NCBI GenBank assembly: GCA_900317055.1
Contig: ONFF01000001.1
Location: forward strand, 263,823-327,822
Length of the DNA stretch: 64,000 nt
Direction of reading: 5' to 3'
Source of the DNA: an uncultured Bacteroidales bacterium
GTDB taxonomy: Bacteria > Bacteroidota > Bacteroidia > Bacteroidales > F082
In this document: positions 2,950 through 45,792 of the stretch, piece by piece
Layout of the letters: every line of letters begins with the position of its first letter
How positions within the stretch are numbered: the stretch's first letter is position 1
Translations under genes and position numbers: made by a program
Notes under the pieces: generated by a model
Databases searched by the model: none
Seen by the model: only the letters and a program-made list of their open reading frames with translations
Told to the model about the DNA's origin: nothing

Positions 2950-3903
2950 ATGAAAATTATTGGAACAGGAAGCGCAGTGCCATCGCTCACGGTGACCAAC
3001 GACGACTTGGCCACTTTTTTGGACACTAACGATGCTTGGATCTCGTCTCGTACAGGAATCCAAGCCCGTCACCTTTTATCTACTGAATCTTTATATGACT
3101 TGGCCGTTGACGCCGCCGACAAGGCTATCCAAGCCTCGGGACTTCGTAACGACCAGATAGATTTCCTTTTGGTCTCGAATGTGGCAAACCAACATGTCAC
3201 TCCTGGATTGAGTTGTATCATTCAAAAGCGTATTGGCGTCACTTGTGCGGGTCTCGATATCAATGTGGCTTGCGCCGGCTTTGTCAACGCCTTGATGCTT
3301 GCCGATAGTATGATTAAAGCGGGTCACGCCAAGAATATATTAATAGTGTGTGCCGAGGAGCCCACCAAATACTGCAATTGGAACGAAAGAGACTGCAGCG
3401 TCCTCTTCGGTGATGGTGCAGGCGCAGTAGTGTTGACTGAAGGCACTGCCTTTAAGGATGTGAAACTCACCATGATTTCTGACCGTGATGTGCTGTACTA
3501 CGAACGCGGCATGGAAACCACGCCTTTTGAGAAGCATTATACCAAAGGCCAACCTCTGGTAATGAAAGGTAAGGAATTGTTCAAAACTGCCGTCACTGAA
3601 TCCGCCAAGGATATCCAAAATGTGCTTGACTATAATCACCTGACCCACGAGGACATCACTTGGTTTATGCTGCATCAGGCCAACAAGCGCATCATCGAAG
3701 GCATCCGCCACATTATAGGTGGTCCCGAGGAGAAATATCCCACCATCATTGAGAAATACGGAAACACTTCTTCGGCTAGCATCCCGATCATGCTTGACGA
3801 AATGCTCAGGGCGGGCAAAATCAAAGAAGGTGACAAGATCATCATGAGCGCCTTCGGCGCTGGTTTCGTGTCAGCTGCCTGCCTTTGGGAATGGGAGTTT
3901 TAA
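2950..3903 (+). CDS. fabH: Beta-ketoacyl-ACP synthase III
   Basis: 317 residues, the usual FabH length. It starts fatty acid synthesis by condensing an acyl-CoA primer with malonyl-ACP in the cytoplasm. The catalytic triad is visible: Cys108 in VACAGF, His242 in MLHQANKRI and Asn272 in YGNTSSAS. The ATG at 2950 is chosen because MKIIGTGSAVP is the normal family start; a longer in-frame reading from a TTG at 2773 would cross the promoter. First gene of fabH-fabF-fabZ-acpP-fabG. KASIII enzymes of secondary polyene pathways look similar, so a role outside bulk lipid synthesis cannot be excluded. Confidence 0.9.
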   Translation: MKIIGTGSAVPSLTVTNDDLATFLDTNDAWISSRTGIQARHLLSTESLYDLAVDAADKAIQASGLRNDQIDFLLVSNVANQHVTPGLSCIIQKRIGVTCAGLDINVACAGFVNALMLADSMIKAGHAKNILIVCAEEPTKYCNWNERDCSVLFGDGAGAVVLTEGTAFKDVKLTMISDRDVLYYERGMETTPFEKHYTKGQPLVMKGKELFKTAVTESAKDIQNVLDYNHLTHEDITWFMLHQANKRIIEGIRHIIGGPEEKYPTIIEKYGNTSSASIPIMLDEMLRAGKIKEGDKIIMSAFGAGFVSAACLWEWEF

Positions 3904-3905
3904 TT

Positions 3906-4008
3906 GAATGTGGAATGATGAATGTGGAATGATGAATGATGGTTTTTGCCCCATTCAGCATTAGCTTCGCTGAATCTGCGATTTCAGCATTCCGAATTCA
4001 GCATTAAG
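3906..4008. repeat. Heptad-periodic array A (two opposed halves)
   Basis: Between fabH and fabF. The left half is five heptamers, alternating GAATGTG and GAATGAT (3906-3940). After a 12-nt spacer the right half (3953-4008) is eight degenerate heptamers of the ATTCAGC/AATTCAG/CATTAAG type, roughly complementary to the left half. The period is 7 nt throughout. It has no coding potential and could fold as one long imperfect hairpin in the operon mRNA. Confidence 0.75.
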
Positions 4009-4043
4009 AAGTTGTTTACCAAAGAAGAAAAATTTACAATTAT

Positions 4044-5285
4044 ATGAATACTGATAATAGAAGAGTAGTTATAACAGGTATGGGTGCCGTTTCGCCGATT
4101 GGCAACGACCTGCCGACTATATGGGATAACCTGATGAAAGGCTATTGCGGCATCGACTTCATCAAATCATTTGATGCCACTGACCTTCCTGTGAAGATCG
4201 CCGCCGAGTTGAAGGATTTCAACCCTGAAGCTTGTGGCGTTGATAAGGGTTTTGTCAAGCGCAACGACCGTTTTGCAGTCTATACCCTGGCTGCAGCCTA
4301 TCAAGCCATGAAGGACAACGAGGACATGCAGATGAGTCCCGACCGCTTGGGCGTGTATGTCGGTTCCGGTATTGGTGGCTTCGACACCATTATGAAAGGC
4401 GTCAAGACCTATTATGAAGAAGGTGCGCGTTGGATTTCACCTTTGATGATCCCGACCATGATTGGAAACCAAGCCTCTGGTAGTGTGGCTATCCGCTACA
4501 ACGCCCAAGGACCTTGCGTCCCCATTGTGACGGCTTGCGCCACGGGAACCCACAGCATCGGTGAGGCCTATCGTGCCATTAAGCATGGCTATGCCGATGC
4601 CATCATCGCTGGCGGTTCTGAAGCTGGTATCAACCCCGTCTCCATTGGTGGTTTTGCCAACTGCAAGGCTTTGACGAAGTCGGAAGACCCCAAGTATGCC
4701 TCCCTGCCGTTCAACAAGAACCGCGCTGGTTTCGTCATCGCCGAAGGTTCGGGTATTGTGTTGCTTGAGGAATACGAACATGCCAAGCAGCGTGGCGCGA
4801 AGATTTATGCCGAACTTTGTGGTTATGGCAACTCATGCGATGCCTATCACAGCACGGCTCCGCGTCCTGATGGCACTACGCAAAGTTTGGCCATCAAGCA
4901 AGCCCTTGAAGAAGCTCAATTCAAGGCTGGCGAGAGCATTTACATCAACGCCCACGGTACAGGTACGCCGATGAACGACAGCGGTGAGACCCGCGCCATC
5001 AAAATTGCTATGGGCGAGGAAGAAGCCCACAAGGCCCACATCAGCTCGACCAAGTCGGAGATGGGTCACGCCCTTGGTGCAGCTGGCGCTATCGAGCTCA
5101 TCATCAGTGTAATGGCTTTGAATAACAATACCGTGCCTCCGACCATCGGTCTGGATGAACCCGACCCCGAGTGCGACCTTGACTACACACCCAATAATCC
5201 GCTCAAGGTGGATTTGGACATTGCCATCTCCAACTCTTTGGGCTTCGGTGGACACAATGCCTGCTTGGCTATTCGTAAAATATAA
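4044..5285 (+). CDS. fabF: Beta-ketoacyl-ACP synthase II
   Basis: 413 residues, canonical FabF length. It elongates acyl-ACP by decarboxylative condensation with malonyl-ACP. The Cys-His-His active site is complete: Cys165 in TACATGTHS, His304 in NAHGTGTP and His342 in KSEMGHALGAAG, within two positions of the E. coli enzyme numbering. The C-terminal SNSLGFGGHNA motif is also present. It lies 140 nt after fabH, separated by a heptad array, and 111 nt before fabZ, separated by a hairpin repeat. It is the chain-length factor-independent type, so a normal elongating KAS II rather than an inactive partner. Confidence 0.93.
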   Translation: MNTDNRRVVITGMGAVSPIGNDLPTIWDNLMKGYCGIDFIKSFDATDLPVKIAAELKDFNPEACGVDKGFVKRNDRFAVYTLAAAYQAMKDNEDMQMSPDRLGVYVGSGIGGFDTIMKGVKTYYEEGARWISPLMIPTMIGNQASGSVAIRYNAQGPCVPIVTACATGTHSIGEAYRAIKHGYADAIIAGGSEAGINPVSIGGFANCKALTKSEDPKYASLPFNKNRAGFVIAEGSGIVLLEEYEHAKQRGAKIYAELCGYGNSCDAYHSTAPRPDGTTQSLAIKQALEEAQFKAGESIYINAHGTGTPMNDSGETRAIKIAMGEEEAHKAHISSTKSEMGHALGAAGAIELIISVMALNNNTVPPTIGLDEPDPECDLDYTPNNPLKVDLDIAISNSLGFGGHNACLAIRKI

Positions 5286-5289
5286 TTGC

Positions 5290-5353
5290 TTGTAGGGCTG
5301 TCACATCGTGGCAGCCGAACCACATCGGCTGCCGTGGTACGACAGCCCTACAA
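5290..5353. repeat. Hairpin repeat R1, copy 1
   Basis: Imperfect palindrome with outer arms GTAGGGCTGTC and GACAGCCCTAC (11 bp, perfect), a conserved asymmetric internal loop, inner arms GCAGCCG and CGGCTGC, and the apical loop AACCACAT. It starts 5 nt after the fabF stop. Further copies at 28624-28695 and 44395-44469 share the arms but not the apical loop. Confidence 0.85.
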
Positions 5354-5396
5354 ACCAACAATTAAACGATTCAACAATCAACGATTAAACAACAAT

Positions 5397-5828
5397 ATGA
5401 ACAGAGACGAAATCAAACAGTATCTCCCGCACCGCGAGCCTATGCTTTTGGTCGACGAGATGAACCTCGACGAGAATCATGTGTGTCATTCCAAGTACCA
5501 TGTGACGGGCGAGGAGTTCTTCCTGCAAGGCCATTTCCCTGGCGAACCTGTCGTGCCTGGCGTTATCCTTTGCGAAATCATGGCCCAGTCGTGCGCCCTG
5601 CTGATGAAGGACGACCTCATTGGCAAACTGACCTTCTACACGGGCATCGACAAGGTGCGCTTCAAGAACAGCGTCAAGCCGGGCGACACCGCCGAGGTGG
5701 AAGCCACATTGACCTATCATCGTGCCAACATCTACATCTGCTCCGCAGTGCTCAGCGTGGGCGGAAAGATGTGCGTGAAGGGCGAGCTTTCTTTTGCCCT
5801 ACTTCCCGACACTCGCAACAAACAATGA
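5397..5828 (+). CDS. fabZ: 3-hydroxyacyl-ACP dehydratase, FabZ type
   Basis: 143 residues, hot-dog fold dehydratase removing water from 3-hydroxyacyl-ACP. His46 in the GHFPGEPVVPGVI motif and Glu60 (LCEIMAQ) are the expected catalytic pair. The ATG at 5397 gives MNRDEIKQYLPHREP, the standard FabZ start; earlier in-frame codons run through the hairpin repeat and are not used. It is followed after a 35-nt AT-rich heptad array by acpP. No FabA-like isomerase features are evident. Confidence 0.9.
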   Translation: MNRDEIKQYLPHREPMLLVDEMNLDENHVCHSKYHVTGEEFFLQGHFPGEPVVPGVILCEIMAQSCALLMKDDLIGKLTFYTGIDKVRFKNSVKPGDTAEVEATLTYHRANIYICSAVLSVGGKMCVKGELSFALLPDTRNKQ

Positions 5829-5861
5829 ATCTTGAATTTTGAATTTTAAATCTTAAATTTG
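5827..5861. repeat. Heptad-periodic array B
   Basis: Five heptamers, GAATCTT-GAATTTT-GAATTTT-AAATCTT-AAATTTG, fill the fabZ-acpP spacer. The first overlaps the fabZ TGA and the array ends 2 nt before the acpP ATG, so it also forms the translation initiation region of acpP. Confidence 0.7.
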
Positions 5862-5863
5862 AG

Positions 5864-6109
5864 ATGGCAACGATTCAAGACAAGGCGCGGGCATTTATCG
5901 CTACCAAGCTGAACGTCAGCGAGAGAGAAGTCACGCCAGAGAAGCATCTTTTTAACGACTTGGGCGCTGATTCGTTGGATGTCGTGGAGCTTCTCATGAT
6001 TTTGGAGAGCGAATTCAATGTGAAATTCTCCGAGGACGATACGGCCAATGTCAAGACCGTCGGCGACTTGTATGCAATGATTGAGAAATACATTCAGAAA
6101 ACTAAATAA
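5864..6109 (+). CDS. acpP: Acyl carrier protein
   Basis: 81 residues, acidic, the usual ACP size. It carries growing acyl chains on a 4'-phosphopantetheine arm attached to Ser37 in the LGADSLDVVELLM motif. Placed between the dehydratase and the reductase genes, it is likely the carrier used by this set of enzymes. Nothing in the sequence distinguishes a housekeeping ACP from a dedicated pathway carrier. No phosphopantetheinyl transferase gene is nearby. Confidence 0.93.
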   Translation: MATIQDKARAFIATKLNVSEREVTPEKHLFNDLGADSLDVVELLMILESEFNVKFSEDDTANVKTVGDLYAMIEKYIQKTK

Positions 6110-6118
6110 CAGAAGATC

Positions 6119-6865
6119 ATGGGATTATTAGACAATAAAGTGGCTCTGATTACTGGAGCTGGTCGTGGCATCGGCAAGGCCATTGCTTTGCGTTTTGCCC
6201 AGGAAGGCTGCAACATTGCCTTCACCGATATCGCTTTGAACGATGTCGTCATGGAAACTGAAAAGGAGCTACAAGCTCTTGGCTTCAAGGCTAAGGCTTA
6301 TGCCTCAAATGCGGCCAATTTTGAGGAGACGCATCAGGTCGTTGACGAAATCGTTAAGGACTTCGGTCGCATTGACATCCTCGTCAACAATGCAGGTATC
6401 ACCAAGGACACCGCACTCAAACGCATGACCGAGGAACAATGGGATGCCGTTATCAATGTGAACCTCAAGTCGGTGTTCAACTTCACCAAGGCTGTGCAGC
6501 CTGTGATGTGGAAGCAAAACGGGGGTAGTGTCATCAATATGAGTTCGGTGGTGGGTGTCTCTGGCAATGCCAACCAGTGCAACTACAGTGCCTCGAAGGC
6601 CGGTATCATCGGCTTTACCAAGAGTGCAGCCAAGGAAATGGGTGTGCGCAACATCCGTCATAACGCCATCGCACCTGGTTTCATCATTACAGCCATGACC
6701 AATGCCCTGCCTGAGGATGTCCGCAAACAATGGGAAAGCCTGATTCCGCTACGTCGCGGTGGCACGCCCGAGGATGTAGCCAATGTGGCCCTCTTCCTTG
6801 CCTCCGATCTCAGCTCGTATGTCACAGGTCAGGTCATCCACTGCTGTGGTGGCATGAATTGCTAA
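6119..6865 (+). CDS. fabG: 3-oxoacyl-ACP reductase
   Basis: 248 residues, short-chain dehydrogenase/reductase using NADPH to reduce 3-oxoacyl-ACP. The cofactor motif TGAGRGIG is at 13-20, the NNAG motif near 90, and the catalytic Ser143, Tyr156 and Lys160 lie in NMSSVVG and YSASKAG. It starts 9 nt after acpP and is the last gene of the fab operon, followed by a terminator. The order fabH-fabF-fabZ-acpP-fabG supplies priming, elongation, dehydration and ketoreduction, but neither an enoyl reductase nor fabD is present here. Confidence 0.92.
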   Translation: MGLLDNKVALITGAGRGIGKAIALRFAQEGCNIAFTDIALNDVVMETEKELQALGFKAKAYASNAANFEETHQVVDEIVKDFGRIDILVNNAGITKDTALKRMTEEQWDAVINVNLKSVFNFTKAVQPVMWKQNGGSVINMSSVVGVSGNANQCNYSASKAGIIGFTKSAAKEMGVRNIRHNAIAPGFIITAMTNALPEDVRKQWESLIPLRRGGTPEDVANVALFLASDLSSYVTGQVIHCCGGMNC

Positions 6866-6897
6866 GAAAACGAATTATTGAAAACGATAGCAGAAAG

Positions 6898-6932
6898 GAA
6901 AGCCTCGCTGATTGGCGGGGCTTTCTTGTTTT
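6898..6932 (+). terminator. Intrinsic terminator of the fab operon
   Basis: GAAAGCCTCGC (6898-6908) pairs with GCGGGGCTTTC (6915-6925) with one G-U pair and a 6-nt loop, followed by TTGTTTT. It abuts the stop codon of the convergent LytTR gene and may serve both directions. Confidence 0.8.
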
Positions 6933-7818
6933 ATTTTTTGTTGAAGGCTTCCAAAACCTTAGCCGAGTAGGTCTTCGAAACAGGAATGGAATCCAATCCT
7001 TCGCGTTCAAAGTCGATGACAAAACCGTCGGCTTCGTTGTGCAAGACGCTCACTTTCTTGATGTTGACGATATAAGAGCGATGACAACGCATCAATGAGC
7101 TGGAATCCACGCAGTTGTCCTCGATGGTCTTCATCTTGCAGCGTAGCATGTAACTGGCAATGGCGCCGCTGCGTTGGTAAAATACATTGATATAATTGTC
7201 TTCCGCCTTGATGTAATAGAGGTTGTCGAGCTTGACGGACAGCTTCAGGTTGCCGTTGTTGTCCATCAGGTTGATGATTTCGGTGTGCTCAGGCATCACC
7301 TCATCGTCTGACTCTACCGTGTCGCTCTTCGTGAGCATAAGGCGTTGTTGCGTGTCTTTCAATAAGATAACTAAGTCGGTGACGGTGTAGGGAACACCTA
7401 AGGCCACCATAGAGACAAGGAAGCTCTTCGCCAGGATAAAGGCAAAGCTATGTCCCATGGCTTCAGTGATCTGGATCTGGAAATAGGAGAGTAGGGTGTA
7501 ATACACGGCAATCAGCACGATTTCAAGGAAAAGCCAGAGGATATAGAGCCAAAAAGGGAAATGTCGCATCTTCTTGACGAGCCATGTCATCAATGTTCGG
7601 CTGAGGGCTAAAAACAGGGTGCCAGTACCCACAAATGCCAAGGTGGTGAAGAAATAGTTTCCTTTTCCGACTTGAAACCAAGCAGTGGCGGAAAACGGAA
7701 CATAAGCCGTCAGAAAAACGAGAGCAAACAAAGTCGAGATGATGACGTTGATTGACTGGCTGACAGGTTCTGTCAGGCACTCAGGGGTTTGCGTTATCAG
7801 TCGTCTTGGGTATTTCAT
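6931..7818 (-). CDS. Membrane-anchored LytTR-family transcriptional regulator
   Basis: 295 residues. The N-terminal half has four predicted membrane segments (about 20-45, 55-75, 88-110 and 120-145). The C-terminal half is a LytTR DNA-binding domain (about 195-290) with LYYIKAEDNYINVFY and MRCHRSYIVNI. There is no receiver domain, so it is a one-component membrane regulator rather than a response regulator. The ATG at 7818 is preferred over an upstream TTG at 7851 because the latter lies inside the promoter. It converges on fabG; targets and signal are unknown. Confidence 0.85.
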   Translation of the reverse strand: MKYPRRLITQTPECLTEPVSQSINVIISTLFALVFLTAYVPFSATAWFQVGKGNYFFTTLAFVGTGTLFLALSRTLMTWLVKKMRHFPFWLYILWLFLEIVLIAVYYTLLSYFQIQITEAMGHSFAFILAKSFLVSMVALGVPYTVTDLVILLKDTQQRLMLTKSDTVESDDEVMPEHTEIINLMDNNGNLKLSVKLDNLYYIKAEDNYINVFYQRSGAIASYMLRCKMKTIEDNCVDSSSLMRCHRSYIVNIKKVSVLHNEADGFVIDFEREGLDSIPVSKTYSAKVLEAFNKK

Positions 7819-7840
7819 CGTTTGCTCAAAAAAAGTGCGG

Positions 7841-7870
7841 CAAAGATACAAAAACTTGTCAAATTGTCAA
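7841..7870 (-). promoter_or_regulatory. Promoter of the membrane LytTR regulator
   Basis: On the minus strand TTG (7870-7868) and TATCTTTG (7848-7841) are separated by exactly 19 nt. The start of transcription would fall about 16 nt before the ATG at 7818. The -33 box lies inside the last codons of recX. Confidence 0.75.
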
Positions 7871-8338
7871 ATCCTTCAGGACTTCCCAAATCAGATTGCC
7901 CTCGAAGCCTTTTTGCATAGCGTATGCGGCCAATTTGCGTTTTTTCTCGAAGTCAGATTCTGCTTTTATGGTCTTGGATTTGGCCTTTAGGATGTCAATG
8001 AGCCGTTGGCGGTAGACTTCATTGTCGGTTTGTCCTATAGCTTCATCGATGATATCTTTATCGATGCCTTTCTGTATGAGGTGGAAACGGATTTTGTTGA
8101 CACCCCAGCCGCTTTGGTTGATTTTGCCTCTGACAAAACTCTTGGCAAACCTTTCGTCGTTGACAAAACGGTTATCCAGCAGATAATCAAGGATTTTTGT
8201 CTTTTCCTCTTCGAGGATGTCGAAGGTCTTCAGCTTGTCTCTCACATCTTTTACACAGCGTTCCTGATAAGCGCAGTACTTGGCCATCTTGTCAAGAACT
8301 TGGTCGGGCGTGAGGGGCTTGGCAGGTTGTTTCGGCAT
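7859..8338 (-). CDS. recX: RecX family regulatory protein
   Basis: 159 residues, a normal RecX size. RecX binds and restrains RecA filaments. The three-helix RecX repeats are visible (CAYQERCVKDVRDKL; ILDYLLDNRFVNDERFAKSF; VNKIRFHLIQKGI). Start at the ATG at 8338, whose A is shared with the TGA of the upstream PTS-IIC-like gene (TGATG overlap), implying translational coupling; a longer reading frame extends into that gene but lacks family similarity. The partnership with a permease is unexpected, as no recA is nearby. Confidence 0.87.
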   Translation of the reverse strand: MPKQPAKPLTPDQVLDKMAKYCAYQERCVKDVRDKLKTFDILEEEKTKILDYLLDNRFVNDERFAKSFVRGKINQSGWGVNKIRFHLIQKGIDKDIIDEAIGQTDNEVYRQRLIDILKAKSKTIKAESDFEKKRKLAAYAMQKGFEGNLIWEVLKDLTI

Positions 8339-9357
8339 CAGCAGTCGATTTTGAGGTCGCCTTCCTTGATCCAGCCTATCTTTCTCAGAATCAGTCCGAA
8401 GAGCCAAGAAAGCACAGCAGGGAGCACGAAGCAGACGAGTGCCATGCCCAGCCACATGTTCATGCCACCTTCAGGCATGGCGGTGTAGATGCCAATGGGT
8501 CCGACAAGGCCGCAAGTACCCATGCCGGATCCGATGGGGATGTTCTCCAGATGGAAGACACAGGTGGAGATAGGTCCCGTGATAGCGGAGGTGAGTAGGA
8601 CGGGAATCCAGATTTTGGGATTCTTCACGATGTTGCCCATCTGCAACATGGAGGTACCGAGACCTTGTGCCACGAGTCCGCCCCAACGGTTTTCCTTGAA
8701 ACTCAACACGGCAAAACCAATCATTTGGGCGCAGCAACCGGCCGTGGCAGCGCCTCCTGCGATGCCACCTAAGCCAATGGCTAGGCAGATAGCCGCTGAA
8801 CTAATGGGCAGGGTGAGCACCGACCCAATGACTACTGAGACGATGACTCCCATGAGGAAGGGCTGCATTTGCGTGGCGTTCTCGATGAAGGTGCCGAGGG
8901 CGGTCATAACCTTTTGGATGGGAGCACCTACAGCATAAGCCATTAACACACCGCTGATGATGACCACGGCAGGCGTGACGAGGATGTCGACTTGGGTCTC
9001 CTTGTAGACGATTTTGCCTAGTTCTACGGCTACGATCACGGCAACATAGGCGCCCATGGGTCCACCAAGTTCATTGCCTGCAATACCCACGGCGATGGCA
9101 CTGAACAGCACCAAGCCTTCGCATTTGAGCTTGTAAGCTATGGCAACGGCGATGGCGGCTCCTGTGGCGGCCTTGGCATATTTGGCGATGGTCTCAAAAG
9201 CTTCAATTCCGGTCTTGTCTCCTAAAGTTTGGAAGATGGTACCGATAAGCAACGAGGCGAACAAGCCCAGCGCCATAGCACCAAGAGCGTCGACAAAATA
9301 GGCCTTCCAGGTCATGTCGACGCCCTTGCGCTGTAGGAATGATTTGAATTTGCTCAT
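8338..9357 (-). CDS. PTS IIC-like membrane permease (PTS_EIIC_2 family)
   Basis: 339 residues, about ten hydrophobic segments rich in Gly and Ala. GNELGGPMGAYVAV, the PISSAAICLAIGLGGIAGGA stretch and the GMGTCGLVGPIG motif fit the PTS_EIIC_2 family of transporter subunits that occur without fused IIA or IIB domains. No phosphotransferase components are encoded nearby, so sugar phosphorylation cannot be inferred; it may act as an independent transporter. The stop codon overlaps the recX start by one base. The upstream 170 nt contain a cruciform-like repeat. Confidence 0.75.
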   Translation of the reverse strand: MSKFKSFLQRKGVDMTWKAYFVDALGAMALGLFASLLIGTIFQTLGDKTGIEAFETIAKYAKAATGAAIAVAIAYKLKCEGLVLFSAIAVGIAGNELGGPMGAYVAVIVAVELGKIVYKETQVDILVTPAVVIISGVLMAYAVGAPIQKVMTALGTFIENATQMQPFLMGVIVSVVIGSVLTLPISSAAICLAIGLGGIAGGAATAGCCAQMIGFAVLSFKENRWGGLVAQGLGTSMLQMGNIVKNPKIWIPVLLTSAITGPISTCVFHLENIPIGSGMGTCGLVGPIGIYTAMPEGGMNMWLGMALVCFVLPAVLSWLFGLILRKIGWIKEGDLKIDC

Positions 9358-43080: not shown

Positions 43081-44358
43081 ATGAAAAAATTACTTTTGAT
43101 TGTCGCTGCTTTCATTTGCAGCATCAACGTTTGTAACGCTCAAAACTATGAGGTTCTTTATGTAGAGCAACTCGTTTCAGACAGTGTTTACCGTTATTGC
43201 CAGCCACAAGTTTCCGGAGTAATAATCTACGGACAGGAAGGCTGTGAATTCAATCAGTTCTATGTGGACGGTCAACTGTTTGAAAACGATTCCATTATCC
43301 TTGATGGAGGATATTATCGTATTTCATTCGATGGATGTGACTACCTTTCCGTATCATTTTGGCTTGAGCTCACAAGTTCAGACTTCTTCAATCCATTCCC
43401 GAGTCCGATAGTATGGAAACGGGTTGGTGAAAGTGTTACGATAGGCAATCAGTGGACTGACTGGACTTGGCAATGGTCCAATGGAGAAACATCTCCAATG
43501 ATTGAGGTCACAGAAGCAGGCATTTACACCGTTACTGTCTCAGACTTGTGTGGCTCCGAGACCTACTCCATCGAAGTCCGAGACAACGTCGAGATTTACC
43601 GCTCTGGCGTAGACCCTGCCACCAACAAGAACAGAGTGTTGTGGCAGACCACTCCCACACAAGCCGAGTACATCAGCAATGTGAAAGTCGAACGCGACGG
43701 TATGGTCGTAGGAACAGTGCCCTACATGGACGGCCAGTTCCTTGACAATATCGGTAGCGAGAACGCAGCGCGTATCTACCGCATCACAGGCATTGCGAGC
43801 GACGGCACGGAATGTCCGCTACCGAGTTATCAGTTTGGAACGTTCAACACCATCATTTCACCCGACATTGCCAATCCGAGCCTCATGAACTTCACGTGGG
43901 AAGACCCCTTCATCGAAGAAGGTTCGCCCTATTCGATTGTAGCCTACCGCATCGGAAGATTCAACGAAGCCACTGGCGAATTCATCGCCATTGACCAGGT
44001 GAGCGCCCAGGTCCATATTGCCAAGTACAACATGGACTTGTTCGACGGTGACTATGGCCTCGTGGCCGCCGTGTTCAACGACGTGAAGAATCGCGACTAC
44101 GAGGAGTTGGCCTTCTCCAACCGCTCCGATAGCGGAATCGTGGGCATAAACGAACAAAACGGTGAGACCTTCGAAATCTACCCTAATCCTGCCAAAGACC
44201 GTTTCACCGTCGAAGGATCGGGTACAATGACCGTCATGAATACCTTGGGACAGACCATTTTGACACAAGAAATCGACAGCAAAACGACCATTGAACTGCC
44301 GCAAGGCCTGTATTTCGTGAAATTGGGTGGTGCCATGCGGAAAATCGTGATGGAATAA
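43081..44358 (+). CDS. Secreted T9SS cargo protein of unknown function
   Basis: 425 residues. Signal peptide (MKKLLLIVAAFICSINVCNA) then an extracellular protein with a PKD/Ig-like segment around 110-165 (WQWSNGETSPMIEVTEAGIY), a fibronectin-III-like region around 165-340 and a T9SS sorting domain (IYPNPAKDRFTVEG to AMRKIVME). Cysteines are few. It follows the structured RNA candidate by 60 nt, so its expression may depend on it. No catalytic motif is recognisable; adhesion or binding is possible. Confidence 0.75.
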   Translation: MKKLLLIVAAFICSINVCNAQNYEVLYVEQLVSDSVYRYCQPQVSGVIIYGQEGCEFNQFYVDGQLFENDSIILDGGYYRISFDGCDYLSVSFWLELTSSDFFNPFPSPIVWKRVGESVTIGNQWTDWTWQWSNGETSPMIEVTEAGIYTVTVSDLCGSETYSIEVRDNVEIYRSGVDPATNKNRVLWQTTPTQAEYISNVKVERDGMVVGTVPYMDGQFLDNIGSENAARIYRITGIASDGTECPLPSYQFGTFNTIISPDIANPSLMNFTWEDPFIEEGSPYSIVAYRIGRFNEATGEFIAIDQVSAQVHIAKYNMDLFDGDYGLVAAVFNDVKNRDYEELAFSNRSDSGIVGINEQNGETFEIYPNPAKDRFTVEGSGTMTVMNTLGQTILTQEIDSKTTIELPQGLYFVKLGGAMRKIVME

Positions 44359-44369
44359 CCGCATCGGTC

Positions 44370-44469
44370 TGTAGGGCTGTCATATCGTGGTGGTTTGTAG
44401 GGCTGTCACATCGTGGCAGCCGCAGCAATACAACAATGCTGCGGCTGCCGTGGTACGACAGCCCTACAA
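44370..44469. repeat. Hairpin repeat R1, copy 3 with partial extra arm
   Basis: A full copy at 44395-44469 (arms GTAGGGCTGTC/GACAGCCCTAC, apical region CAGCAATACAACAATGCTG) is preceded by an additional left arm at 44370-44394 (CTGTAGGGCTGTCATATCG), as if a second element was truncated by the first. It begins 12 nt after the T9SS protein stop. Confidence 0.85.
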
Positions 44470-44500
44470 TCCTCGGCCTTCGGGTCGGGGATTTTTTTTT
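44468..44500 (+). terminator. Intrinsic terminator next to hairpin repeat copy 3
   Basis: AATCCTCGGCC (44468-44478), TTCG tetraloop, GGTCGGGGATT (44483-44493), then seven T residues. Two G-U pairs, otherwise perfect. It ends the T9SS gene transcript and separates it from the AAA gene. Confidence 0.88.
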
Positions 44501-44525
44501 GTTTCATGATTTCTGATTTTTTTTC

Positions 44526-44558
44526 GTGCAGATTTACGATTGAATCGAAAATTTGTAC
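44526..44558. promoter_or_regulatory. Palindrome P, upstream copy (operator candidate)
   Basis: A 16-bp-arm imperfect palindrome centred on G44542 (GTGCAGATTTACGATT / AATCGAAAATTTGTAC, 13 of 16 pairs). It covers the interval just upstream of the -7 box TATTTTTG (44559-44566) of the AAA/DUF4143 gene, so a bound protein would block transcription. A near-perfect copy lies just past the gene. Confidence 0.75.
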
Positions 44559-44566
44559 TATTTTTG
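44559..44566 (+). promoter_or_regulatory. -7 element for the AAA/DUF4143 gene
   Basis: TATTTTTG, 20 nt before the ATG at 44587, directly next to the palindrome. A possible -33 TTG at 44540-44542 sits in the palindrome centre. Confidence 0.55.
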
Positions 44567-44586
44567 CGGAATCAATTGAATTAGTG

Positions 44587-45735
44587 ATGATAGAAAGAAC
44601 GATTACCGCAAAATTGCGTCGGATGACGACATTTTATCCGATTGTGTTGCTGACGGGTCCACGACAGTCGGGGAAATCCACTTTGCTTCGCGAGAAATTT
44701 CCTGAATATAAGTATGTCTCGTTGGAGGATTTGGATAACCGCAGTTTTGCCTGGGACGACCCTCGGGGTTTTTTGGATACCTACCCCGACAAAACCATCA
44801 TCGACGAGGCGCAATATGCTCCCAATCTGTTTTCCTATTTGCAAACCCATGTGGATAGTGCCAATAAGGAGGGAATGTACATCCTTTCCGGCTCACAGAA
44901 TTTCCAACTTATGGAAAAGATTTCGCAGTCTTTGGCAGGCCGTGTGGCCATTTTGGAACTGTTGCCGTTTTCTCGTGAGGAACTAAAATCTGCCGATATA
45001 CTTCCTCAAACGATTGAGGATGAAATGTTTATGGGTGCCTATCCGCGTTTATTCGACAAAGGCATCCCGCCCACTGAGTATTATCCTTATTATATCAAGA
45101 CCTACGTGGAGCGTGATGTCAGGCAGTTGAAGAATGTGAGCGATTTGGGCCTGTTCGTGAAGTTCATCAAGTTGTGCGCAGGTCGCATAGGGCAGTTGCT
45201 GAATTATTCTTCGCTGGCCAACGATTGCGGCATTGCGGTTTCCACGGCACAGGCATGGCTTTCAATGCTTGAAACAAGTTATATTGTGCATTTGTTGCGG
45301 CCTGATTTCAATAACTTTTCAAAGCGACTGATTAAATCACCAAAGTTGTATTTCTACGATACAGGCTTGGCTTGTTCGCTTTTGGAGATAAAAGATGCGA
45401 AACAGGTTGGTTCCCATTATCTTAAAGGAGGTCTCTTTGAGAATTATATTATAAATTTGTTCTTGAAAAAGGCATTCAATAAAGGTGAAACGCCTCAATT
45501 GTCGTTTTGGCGCGACAACAAGGGCAACGAGGTCGATTTGTTGGAAACCATTGAAGGAAAGCAGTTTGCCTACGAAATCAAGTCTGGAAAGACCTATTCG
45601 AAAGATTATGCCAATTCATTGAAATATTGGGCAGGTTTGTCGTCAGCTGATGCTGAACACTGCAATATTGTGTATGGTGGCGAACAAAAACTAAAAATGT
45701 CAGAATTTAATGTGCTGACTATAAATGATATATAA
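44587..45735 (+). CDS. AAA ATPase with C-terminal DUF4143 domain
   Basis: 382 residues. Walker A GPRQSGKST at 24-32, Walker B TIIDEAQYAP with Asp73-Glu74, and an arginine-finger candidate SGSQNFQLMEKISQSLAGR around 104-122. DUF4143 follows from about 190, with KTYVERDVRQL and LYFYDTGLACSLL. The C-terminus contains FWRDNKGNEVDLLE then YEIKSGKT, a D-x(n)-ExK pattern like PD-(D/E)xK nucleases. The ATG at 44587 is chosen because upstream codons read through the repeat and palindrome. Both flanks carry palindrome P. Function of this family is not established; the flanking sites suggest self-binding or mobility. Confidence 0.88.
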   Translation: MIERTITAKLRRMTTFYPIVLLTGPRQSGKSTLLREKFPEYKYVSLEDLDNRSFAWDDPRGFLDTYPDKTIIDEAQYAPNLFSYLQTHVDSANKEGMYILSGSQNFQLMEKISQSLAGRVAILELLPFSREELKSADILPQTIEDEMFMGAYPRLFDKGIPPTEYYPYYIKTYVERDVRQLKNVSDLGLFVKFIKLCAGRIGQLLNYSSLANDCGIAVSTAQAWLSMLETSYIVHLLRPDFNNFSKRLIKSPKLYFYDTGLACSLLEIKDAKQVGSHYLKGGLFENYIINLFLKKAFNKGETPQLSFWRDNKGNEVDLLETIEGKQFAYEIKSGKTYSKDYANSLKYWAGLSSADAEHCNIVYGGEQKLKMSEFNVLTINDI

Positions 45736-45738
45736 TAT

Positions 45739-45779
45739 ATTAGTACAGATTTACGATTCAATCGTAAATCTGTACTAAT
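45739..45779. repeat. Palindrome P, downstream copy (perfect)
   Basis: A perfect 20-bp inverted repeat around one spacer base C45759: ATTAGTACAGATTTACGATT and its complement. It begins 4 nt after the AAA/DUF4143 stop codon. The upstream copy at 44526 shares the AGATTTACGATT core. Confidence 0.88.
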
Positions 45780-45792
45780 AATATCGCAAATA

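Follow-up and report, generated by a model that had tools for sequence, protein, structure and literature searches.

A widespread family of DUF4143 ATPase genes bears the signature of single-gene mobile elements

The window, a 64-kb stretch of DNA, belongs to a genome (G000) of 3.5 Mb in 32 contigs, probably of a Bacteroidales bacterium, judging by its named relatives. At positions 44526–45780 it contains a single gene enclosed by two copies of one palindrome. The features of the locus are as follows.

44392..44472, no strand assigned: left-flank hairpin repeat (inverted repeat I2), outside the core unit
44526..44558, + strand: upstream imperfect palindrome forming the left end of the unit and a putative operator; 16-bp arms, 3 mismatched pairs
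44559..44566, + strand: TAnnTTTG promoter-like box (TATTTTTG), adjoining the upstream palindrome
44587..45735, + strand: AAA_14 + DUF4143 gene of the PDC-S01 family, encoding an AAA+ ATPase with a C-terminal PD-(D/E)XK-type domain
45738..45780, no strand assigned: downstream perfect palindrome forming the right end of the unit; 21-bp arms, 1-nt loop

The downstream palindrome starts 3 nt past the stop codon, which ends at 45735. An initial annotation had reported a perfect palindrome with 20-bp arms at 45739–45779, 4 nt after the gene; the palindrome is present, but its arms, borders and distance from the gene are those given here. It is the sole perfect inverted repeat in the window with arms of at least 12 bp and a loop of at most 3 nt, and the longest perfect inverted repeat in 20 first-order Markov sequences of window length was 13 bp. 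The upstream copy, annotated as an imperfect version with 16-bp arms at the promoter, was borne out. It is 87% identical to the downstream palindrome across 38 nt in direct register, and a TAnnTTTG box, the Bacteroidetes −7 consensus, follows it immediately on its 3′ side in 17 of 17 clade members tested, so the upstream copy abuts the promoter. Judged from this layout, it is plausible that the left palindrome serves as an operator and that the gene is autoregulated. The 12-mer AGATTTACGATT occurs three times in the 3.5-Mb genome, every time at this locus, and a search with a 27-nt palindrome pattern allowing up to 3 mismatches still returned just two sites. The hairpin repeat at 44392–44472 lies between a Por-secretion-tail gene (43081–44358) and the unit; several relatives have sequences like it upstream of etfB, and others lie beside other loci.

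The gene product, P0001, comprises 382 amino acids. At E ≤ 0.001, Pfam yields AAA_14 (1.8e-26) and DUF4143 (1.2e-46) alone, with no HUH domain and no PF04754 (Rpn) reported, and the PADLOC profile PDC-S01 matches at 7.6e-93. No NCBIfam or PHROGs family matched the protein, and a sequence search of solved structures returned no usable relative (best E 0.024). An AlphaFold2 model was obtained with a mean pLDDT of 82.7 and a pTM of 0.65, in which the C-terminal part is ordered as a helix (280–298), three strands (305–310, 315–322 and 325–332), a second helix (339–352) and a final strand (359–363). The core of PD-(D/E)XK enzymes runs helix, three strands, helix, strand (alpha-beta-beta-beta-alpha-beta). 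The modelled domain fits this core, including its D...ExK motif, with D317 on strand 2 and E330-x-K332 on strand 3. Residues G24–K30, D73–E74, D317, E330 and K332 are unchanged in 20 of 20 aligned members; the last three are putative catalytic residues and the others are of Walker type. The dN/dS of the gene against six relatives is 0.05–0.07, indicating purifying selection that has kept it functional. Foldseek matched the model to the archaeal Walker-type ATPase 2qen, Cdc6/Orc1, RFC, RuvB, TnsC (7m99) and Avs4, and also to Cdn1 and Can2, which we take to be PD-(D/E)XK nucleases. TM-scores among the 50 matches listed were low (0.20–0.33 overall, 0.20–0.23 for Cdn1 and Can2) and the aligned part is not given, so we rely on the kind of match alone. 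The middle helical part of P0001 is perhaps a winged helix.

Scanning the genome contigs for the P0001 clade yielded 33 loci. Sixteen of them have at least 66% identity, a complete gene and both flanks (L044 and L059 end at contig edges), and all 16 carry two same-type palindromes, one around −61 to −29 and the other a few nucleotides past the stop codon, with a 1-nt insertion in the downstream palindrome of L039. The 16 loci occupy about six contexts and therefore do not represent 16 independent events. When the unit was compared with copies in other contexts, the homologous block ended at 44519/44520 and 45775/45776 (L034, L035, L037 and L041) or corresponded to window positions 44516–45775 (L038). 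The homology common to different genomic contexts spans palindrome to palindrome. At approximately 60–63% identity, most members have a promoter palindrome of different sequence, which is weak in L046, and no same-type palindrome lies directly past the stop codon in L045–L058 (approximately 46–63% identity) where that flank is present. Related palindromes were found 137 nt past the stop codon in L048 and 620 nt upstream in L047. In three members with 48–50% identity (L053, L055 and L056), the promoter palindrome reads GGTACAATTTCGGAAT..ATTCCGAAATTGTACC or nearly so. The sequence of the palindrome varies from clade to clade in step with the protein. One MAG contig (JAGBQJ010000038.1) holds two complete units, L036 and L041, about 9 kb apart, whose proteins are 92% and 95% identical to P0001. 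Their flanks border different sites in other genomes, and their palindromes may mediate rearrangement.

Sites with and without the gene were compared at neighbours named from profile matches as etfB (ETF domain), kbl (glycine C-acetyltransferase), gyrB and murB. The site upstream of kbl is filled in L034, L035, L037, L038 and L060. Thirty further loci of this site, G000 included, comprise four with a solo palindrome (G018, G021, G001 and G025), 24 without a palindrome within the upstream sequence examined (up to 1,500 nt) and two without upstream sequence. In the clearest pair, positions 3551–4976 of L037 align with 3691–5116 of the G018 locus L142 at 92%, and positions 6157–8630 align with 5080–7551 at 90%; the single palindrome at L142 5080–5112 pairs with both palindromes of L037, which are 1,217 bp apart. 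Likewise, the G021 site has one palindrome for the two of L037. The match is not letter-perfect, as about 20 nt of the filled site, beginning some 5 nt right of the palindrome, are missing from the solo sites. L060, from a branch with 75% protein identity, gives the same filled/solo picture against G001, and G025 matches L060 mainly on the right side. The initial annotation had raised the question of whether every palindrome copy abuts a DUF4143 gene. These copies stand without one, but since a single palindrome can be aligned with either copy at the filled site, the solo palindromes look like the empty or excised state rather than an accident. From these alignments we take them for scars left when the two ends recombined, although those at kbl could instead be pre-existing targets. 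Four genomes have a second solo palindrome, some 1.37 kb farther upstream than the one at the kbl site and beyond an esterase-like gene (L035:3253–3285, L037:3571–3603, L142:3711–3743 and L143:4997–5029).

The site upstream of etfB is the one occupied in the window. The best 18 of 30 loci, G000 included, comprise four filled sites, two with a solo palindrome (G007 and G012), ten without a palindrome and two that give no information. The etfB contig of G018 carries a relic made up of roughly 115 bp from the end of a related gene and one palindrome. In G003, where the gene is 97% identical to P0001, a 108-bp extra copy of the etfB start lies left of the unit, the left junction falls inside etfB, and the left flank continues 96% identical to that of the element-free G023. 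By its sequence, the extra copy fits a long target duplication; alternatively, the block may have entered by homologous import. Beside gyrB, L069 encodes a protein 56% identical to P0001 and has a palindrome at each gene end. Five of nine loci of this site (G023, G002, G019, G003 and G000) have both flanks with no palindrome between them, indicating that the palindromes came with the gene in the L069 branch; the other four relatives' loci match on the right side only, and a target duplication is not clearly present at L069. Comparison with loci lacking the gene, a check that the initial annotation had proposed, shows insertion relative to an empty site, as for a classical insertion sequence. 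The annotation's suggestion of a selfish module bounded by palindromes draws support from the filled and empty pairs and from the homology that ends at the palindromes.

The comparison was extended to the whole family, which has 25 DUF4143 matches in G000, 21 of them above the family cut-off. Removal of ORFs shorter than 320 aa or with less than 200 nt of flank reduced 216 DUF4143 ORFs to 186, of which 123 are non-redundant at 90% identity; the same filters took 42 DUF234 ORFs to 28 and then 22. A repeat matching between the 5′ and 3′ flanks (ungapped score of at least 20) is present at 24 of the 123 DUF4143 genes, four of these being from the P0001 clade, against 10 of 324 control ORFs drawn without matching for accessory-gene status (Fisher p 6e-8), and at 5 of 22 DUF234/ATPase_2 genes (Fisher p 0.0013). 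A smaller control set gave 6 of 150. Mismatched flank pairs reached the threshold in 0 of 300 cases for DUF4143 (maximum 19) and 0 of 300 for DUF234. All ten control positives were kept; they include three tandem paralogues (L036), two ORFs beside element repeats (L194 and L143) and L021, which is itself a short DUF4143 gene. The expectation that the palindrome pairing would recur at other DUF4143 genes was not borne out for most of them, and matching repeats at every such gene are rejected: 99 of the 123 have no matching repeat on both sides at this threshold. Long direct repeats around other DUF4143 genes had not been foreseen, and the earlier interpretation as a whole stands in part.

In many cases the flanking repeats are locus-specific direct repeats of 20–113 bp and of variable length, and some contain the 3′ end or a terminator-like hairpin of the neighbouring gene. 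The repeat-to-repeat period is approximately 1.2–1.6 kb, which leaves room for one gene only. With repeats of 20–113 bp, the short fixed-length target duplication of a classical insertion sequence was not found. Palindrome- or hairpin-type repeats occur in the P0001 clade and at L007, L217, L223/L090, L194 and L047. We rejected the possibility that all flanking repeats are hairpins, because those of L198, L199/L076, L190 and L067/L152 fold weakly, and no single rule covers both target duplications and terminal palindromes. L347, L356 and L362, all among the 24, carry short internal or promoter repeats that may not be target duplications. Promoter palindromes (score of at least 8 within 80 nt) are a family trait, being present at 49 of 123 family genes versus 22 of 513 controls (p 7e-23).

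Several repeat-flanked loci have counterparts in other genomes. L009, located behind murB in G000, is flanked by a 49-bp repeat (44 of 49 positions matching) that is single in G023, where both flanks match, and in G019, where the left flank and the repeat match and the right flank is different. A 48-nt repeat at L009:405–452 (G000:C9) lies inside the murB reading frame and leaves it unbroken; it has many copies in this genome and its relatives and is missing at that position in G019 and G023. The hairpin that flanks L007 occurs just once in G018, G021, G012 and G023, beside a gene identified by profile match as an FKBP-type isomerase, presumably slyD. The left neighbour of L007, a DUF234-type ATPase gene, matches in G018 and G021 as well, but only in pieces of 77–85 bp at 73–74%. 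The murB and slyD-like sites suggest hot spots common to DUF4143 and DUF234 genes. DUF234-type ATPase genes were also seen beside murB or slyD-like spots in other species (G021:C80, G018:C58, G018:C1 and G012:C4).

At L348, the repeat is an extra copy of the last 30 codons and stop codon of a Card1-like neighbour. Six genomes have just one copy, which in G018 matches over no more than 52 nt, and the right flank is not common to them. The family gene is absent from the stretch compared in G021, G018 and G000 only; the G002 locus ends soon past the corresponding 3′ end, and G012 and G016 have other DUF4143 genes there, 20–24% identical. The presence of unrelated family genes suggests that this 3′ end is a hot spot and makes it weaker as a clean empty site. 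Different DUF4143 genes with this low identity stand by the same Card1-like 3′ end in G032, G016 (L419) and G012 (L417). The repeat of L198 (51 of 51 nt) includes the last codons of a weakly TonB-receptor-like gene, and no second genome with a copy was found among 40 genomes searched. At L204, a 113-bp repeat includes the end of the right-hand gene, and no empty site was found among the loci collected here. The L199 repeat is dispersed over several genomes. Direct repeats resembling it accompany a gene that looks ATPase_2-like by sequence at L287/L294 (G006:C14:81–1758).

In these observations, a widespread gene family shows the hallmarks of mobile elements that consist of one gene. For the locus itself, we lean towards the interpretation that 44526–45780 is an autoregulated single-gene mobile element with the two palindrome copies as its ends. 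The protein would be its own mobiliser, binding the palindrome and acting by cut-and-copy chemistry; who does the moving is the least certain step. The left palindrome is probably the operator that lets the protein keep its own expression in check. This protein would recognise the palindrome and cut DNA at the end, at the target or at an extruded cruciform, and the unit would be copied or pasted in, in many cases next to a neighbouring gene's 3′ end. Elsewhere in the family, a like event would leave long direct target copies (20–113 bp) on both sides. Later recombination between the end copies would remove the gene and one palindrome, leaving a solo palindrome. Two routes are conceivable, and we make no choice between them. 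A cruciform cut at both feet would give two hairpin ends that, once opened and filled in, would place a palindrome on both sides, which would explain the duplicated hairpins. Alternatively, the long variable duplications of plain sequence would be explained by template switching after a cut, the model put forward for the PD-(D/E)XK nuclease RpnA in the available text of PMC5350276. No recent multi-copy burst of the unit was found in G000.

A broader proposal, which we regard as tentative, is that the DUF4143 (and DUF234) ATPase-nucleases constitute a new class of transposase-like enzyme. As AAA+/PD-(D/E)XK single-protein mobilisers, they would use palindromes or hairpins, insert one gene by host 3′ ends, generating long target duplications, and use the end palindrome for self-repression, perhaps acting on cruciforms so that the hairpin is copied to both sides.

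An alternative that we consider unlikely, yet not negligible, is that the gene is a resident single-gene antiviral defence gene of the PDC-S01 type, that its palindromes are merely operator and terminator, and that its gain and loss reflect the normal turnover of defence genes through horizontal transfer and RecA recombination between short repeats. The strong match to the PADLOC PDC-S01 profile and the presence of Avs4 among the AAA+ Foldseek matches agree with this, as does the upstream palindrome adjoining the promoter; RecA-type deletion between repeats would explain the solo palindromes, and the different DUF4143 genes at one Card1-like spot are what a defence hot spot would also produce. 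PDC-S01 is treated as a defence candidate in the accessible parts of PMC13356809 and PMC12988326. However, resident defence leaves unexplained both the family enrichment of flanking repeats (24 of 123 versus 10 of 324) and the long, locus-specific repeats of which relatives have one copy, and a plain operator and terminator were rejected as sufficient on the basis of the filled/empty pairs. The unit might instead be mobile but moved in trans, with the protein as cargo, either by another enzyme or by host repair through template switching or homology-facilitated insertion of imported DNA; we judge this, too, to be improbable, although several observations speak for it. Repeats of such great and variable length are not what most dedicated transposases produce, the DUF234 family has the same enrichment, and the G003 unit, with its 108-bp extra etfB-start copy and left junction inside etfB, would suit such insertion. 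What argues against a cargo is that the space between the repeats admits one gene only (period of approximately 1.2–1.6 kb), that such repeats are rare at control ORFs, and that no known-transposon ends were noticed on plain inspection of the sequence.

The arrangement also resembles RAYT/REP systems, in which a single gene lies between two palindrome copies and solo palindromes occur elsewhere. That likeness, already drawn in the initial annotation, holds for the layout and breaks down at the enzyme and the copy number: the protein here combines AAA+ and PD-(D/E)XK-type parts, and there are two or three palindrome copies per genome. RAYTs are IS200/IS605-related and REPs usually exceed 100 copies per genome, according to the available sections of PMC2817692. 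An enzyme that multiplies a palindrome family, with the gene-bearing copy as autonomous master, would account for the flanking pair and the solo copies, but the palindrome has two sites in G000, no genome among the 60 has more than three, and Pfam reports no HUH domain, so we think this very improbable; REP-like amplification was rejected on palindrome copy number.

Other known systems share parts of the design. In Tn7-type elements, TnsA is a PD-(D/E)XK enzyme and TnsC an AAA+ protein. The same pair of enzyme activities thus serves one process there, and TnsC (7m99) is among the Foldseek matches; unlike in Tn7, the activities reside here in one fused protein and the unit contains no DDE transposase gene. 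ATPase_2/DUF234 proteins likewise join an ATPase to another C-terminal domain and show matching repeats in 5 of 22 cases, but form a separate Pfam family. Rpn/YhgA-like proteins (PF04754) are described in the portion of PMC5350276 available as PD-(D/E)XK nucleases that promote RecA-independent recombination, with a template-switch model. P0001 shares their nuclease type, but it has an ATPase part as well and PF04754 was not reported by Pfam. An archaeal AAA+-HTH-RecB nuclease group, arCOG03166, which may be kin to the DUF4143 family, is annotated as 'Likely involved in defense (or some plasmid gene)' in the accessible part of PMC4158269. By HMM, P0001 is a member of the PDC-S01/DUF4143-AAA_14 ATPases. 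The available text of PMC12988326 describes S01 as ATPase domains fused to the PD-(D/E)XK superfamily, and there and in the corresponding parts of PMC13356809 PDC-S01 is a phage-defence candidate, without mention of palindromes, target duplications or gene mobility. In the literature searched, with preprints and most subscription journals outside its scope, we found no report of mobility of DUF4143 genes and none of DUF4143 together with palindromes.

A very common gene, guessed to act in virus defence, may therefore be a jumping gene rather than, or besides, a defence gene. Should these genes be mobile units of one gene each, either selfish DNA inflates the tallies of 'defence systems' or mobility and defence are linked; if the new-class proposal is true, one of the commonest prokaryotic 'defence candidates' is a vast unrecognised selfish family. 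The solo palindromes and flanking repeats provide a direct handle, because candidate substrates can be read in genomes. In the accessible parts of two reports, PDC-S01 ranks fourth in frequency among defences across all prokaryotes (PMC12988326) and is the individual defence locus met most often in rumen genomes, with 10,358 occurrences (PMC13356809). Many of the named relatives in our contig scan were, by their titles, ruminant-gut MAGs.
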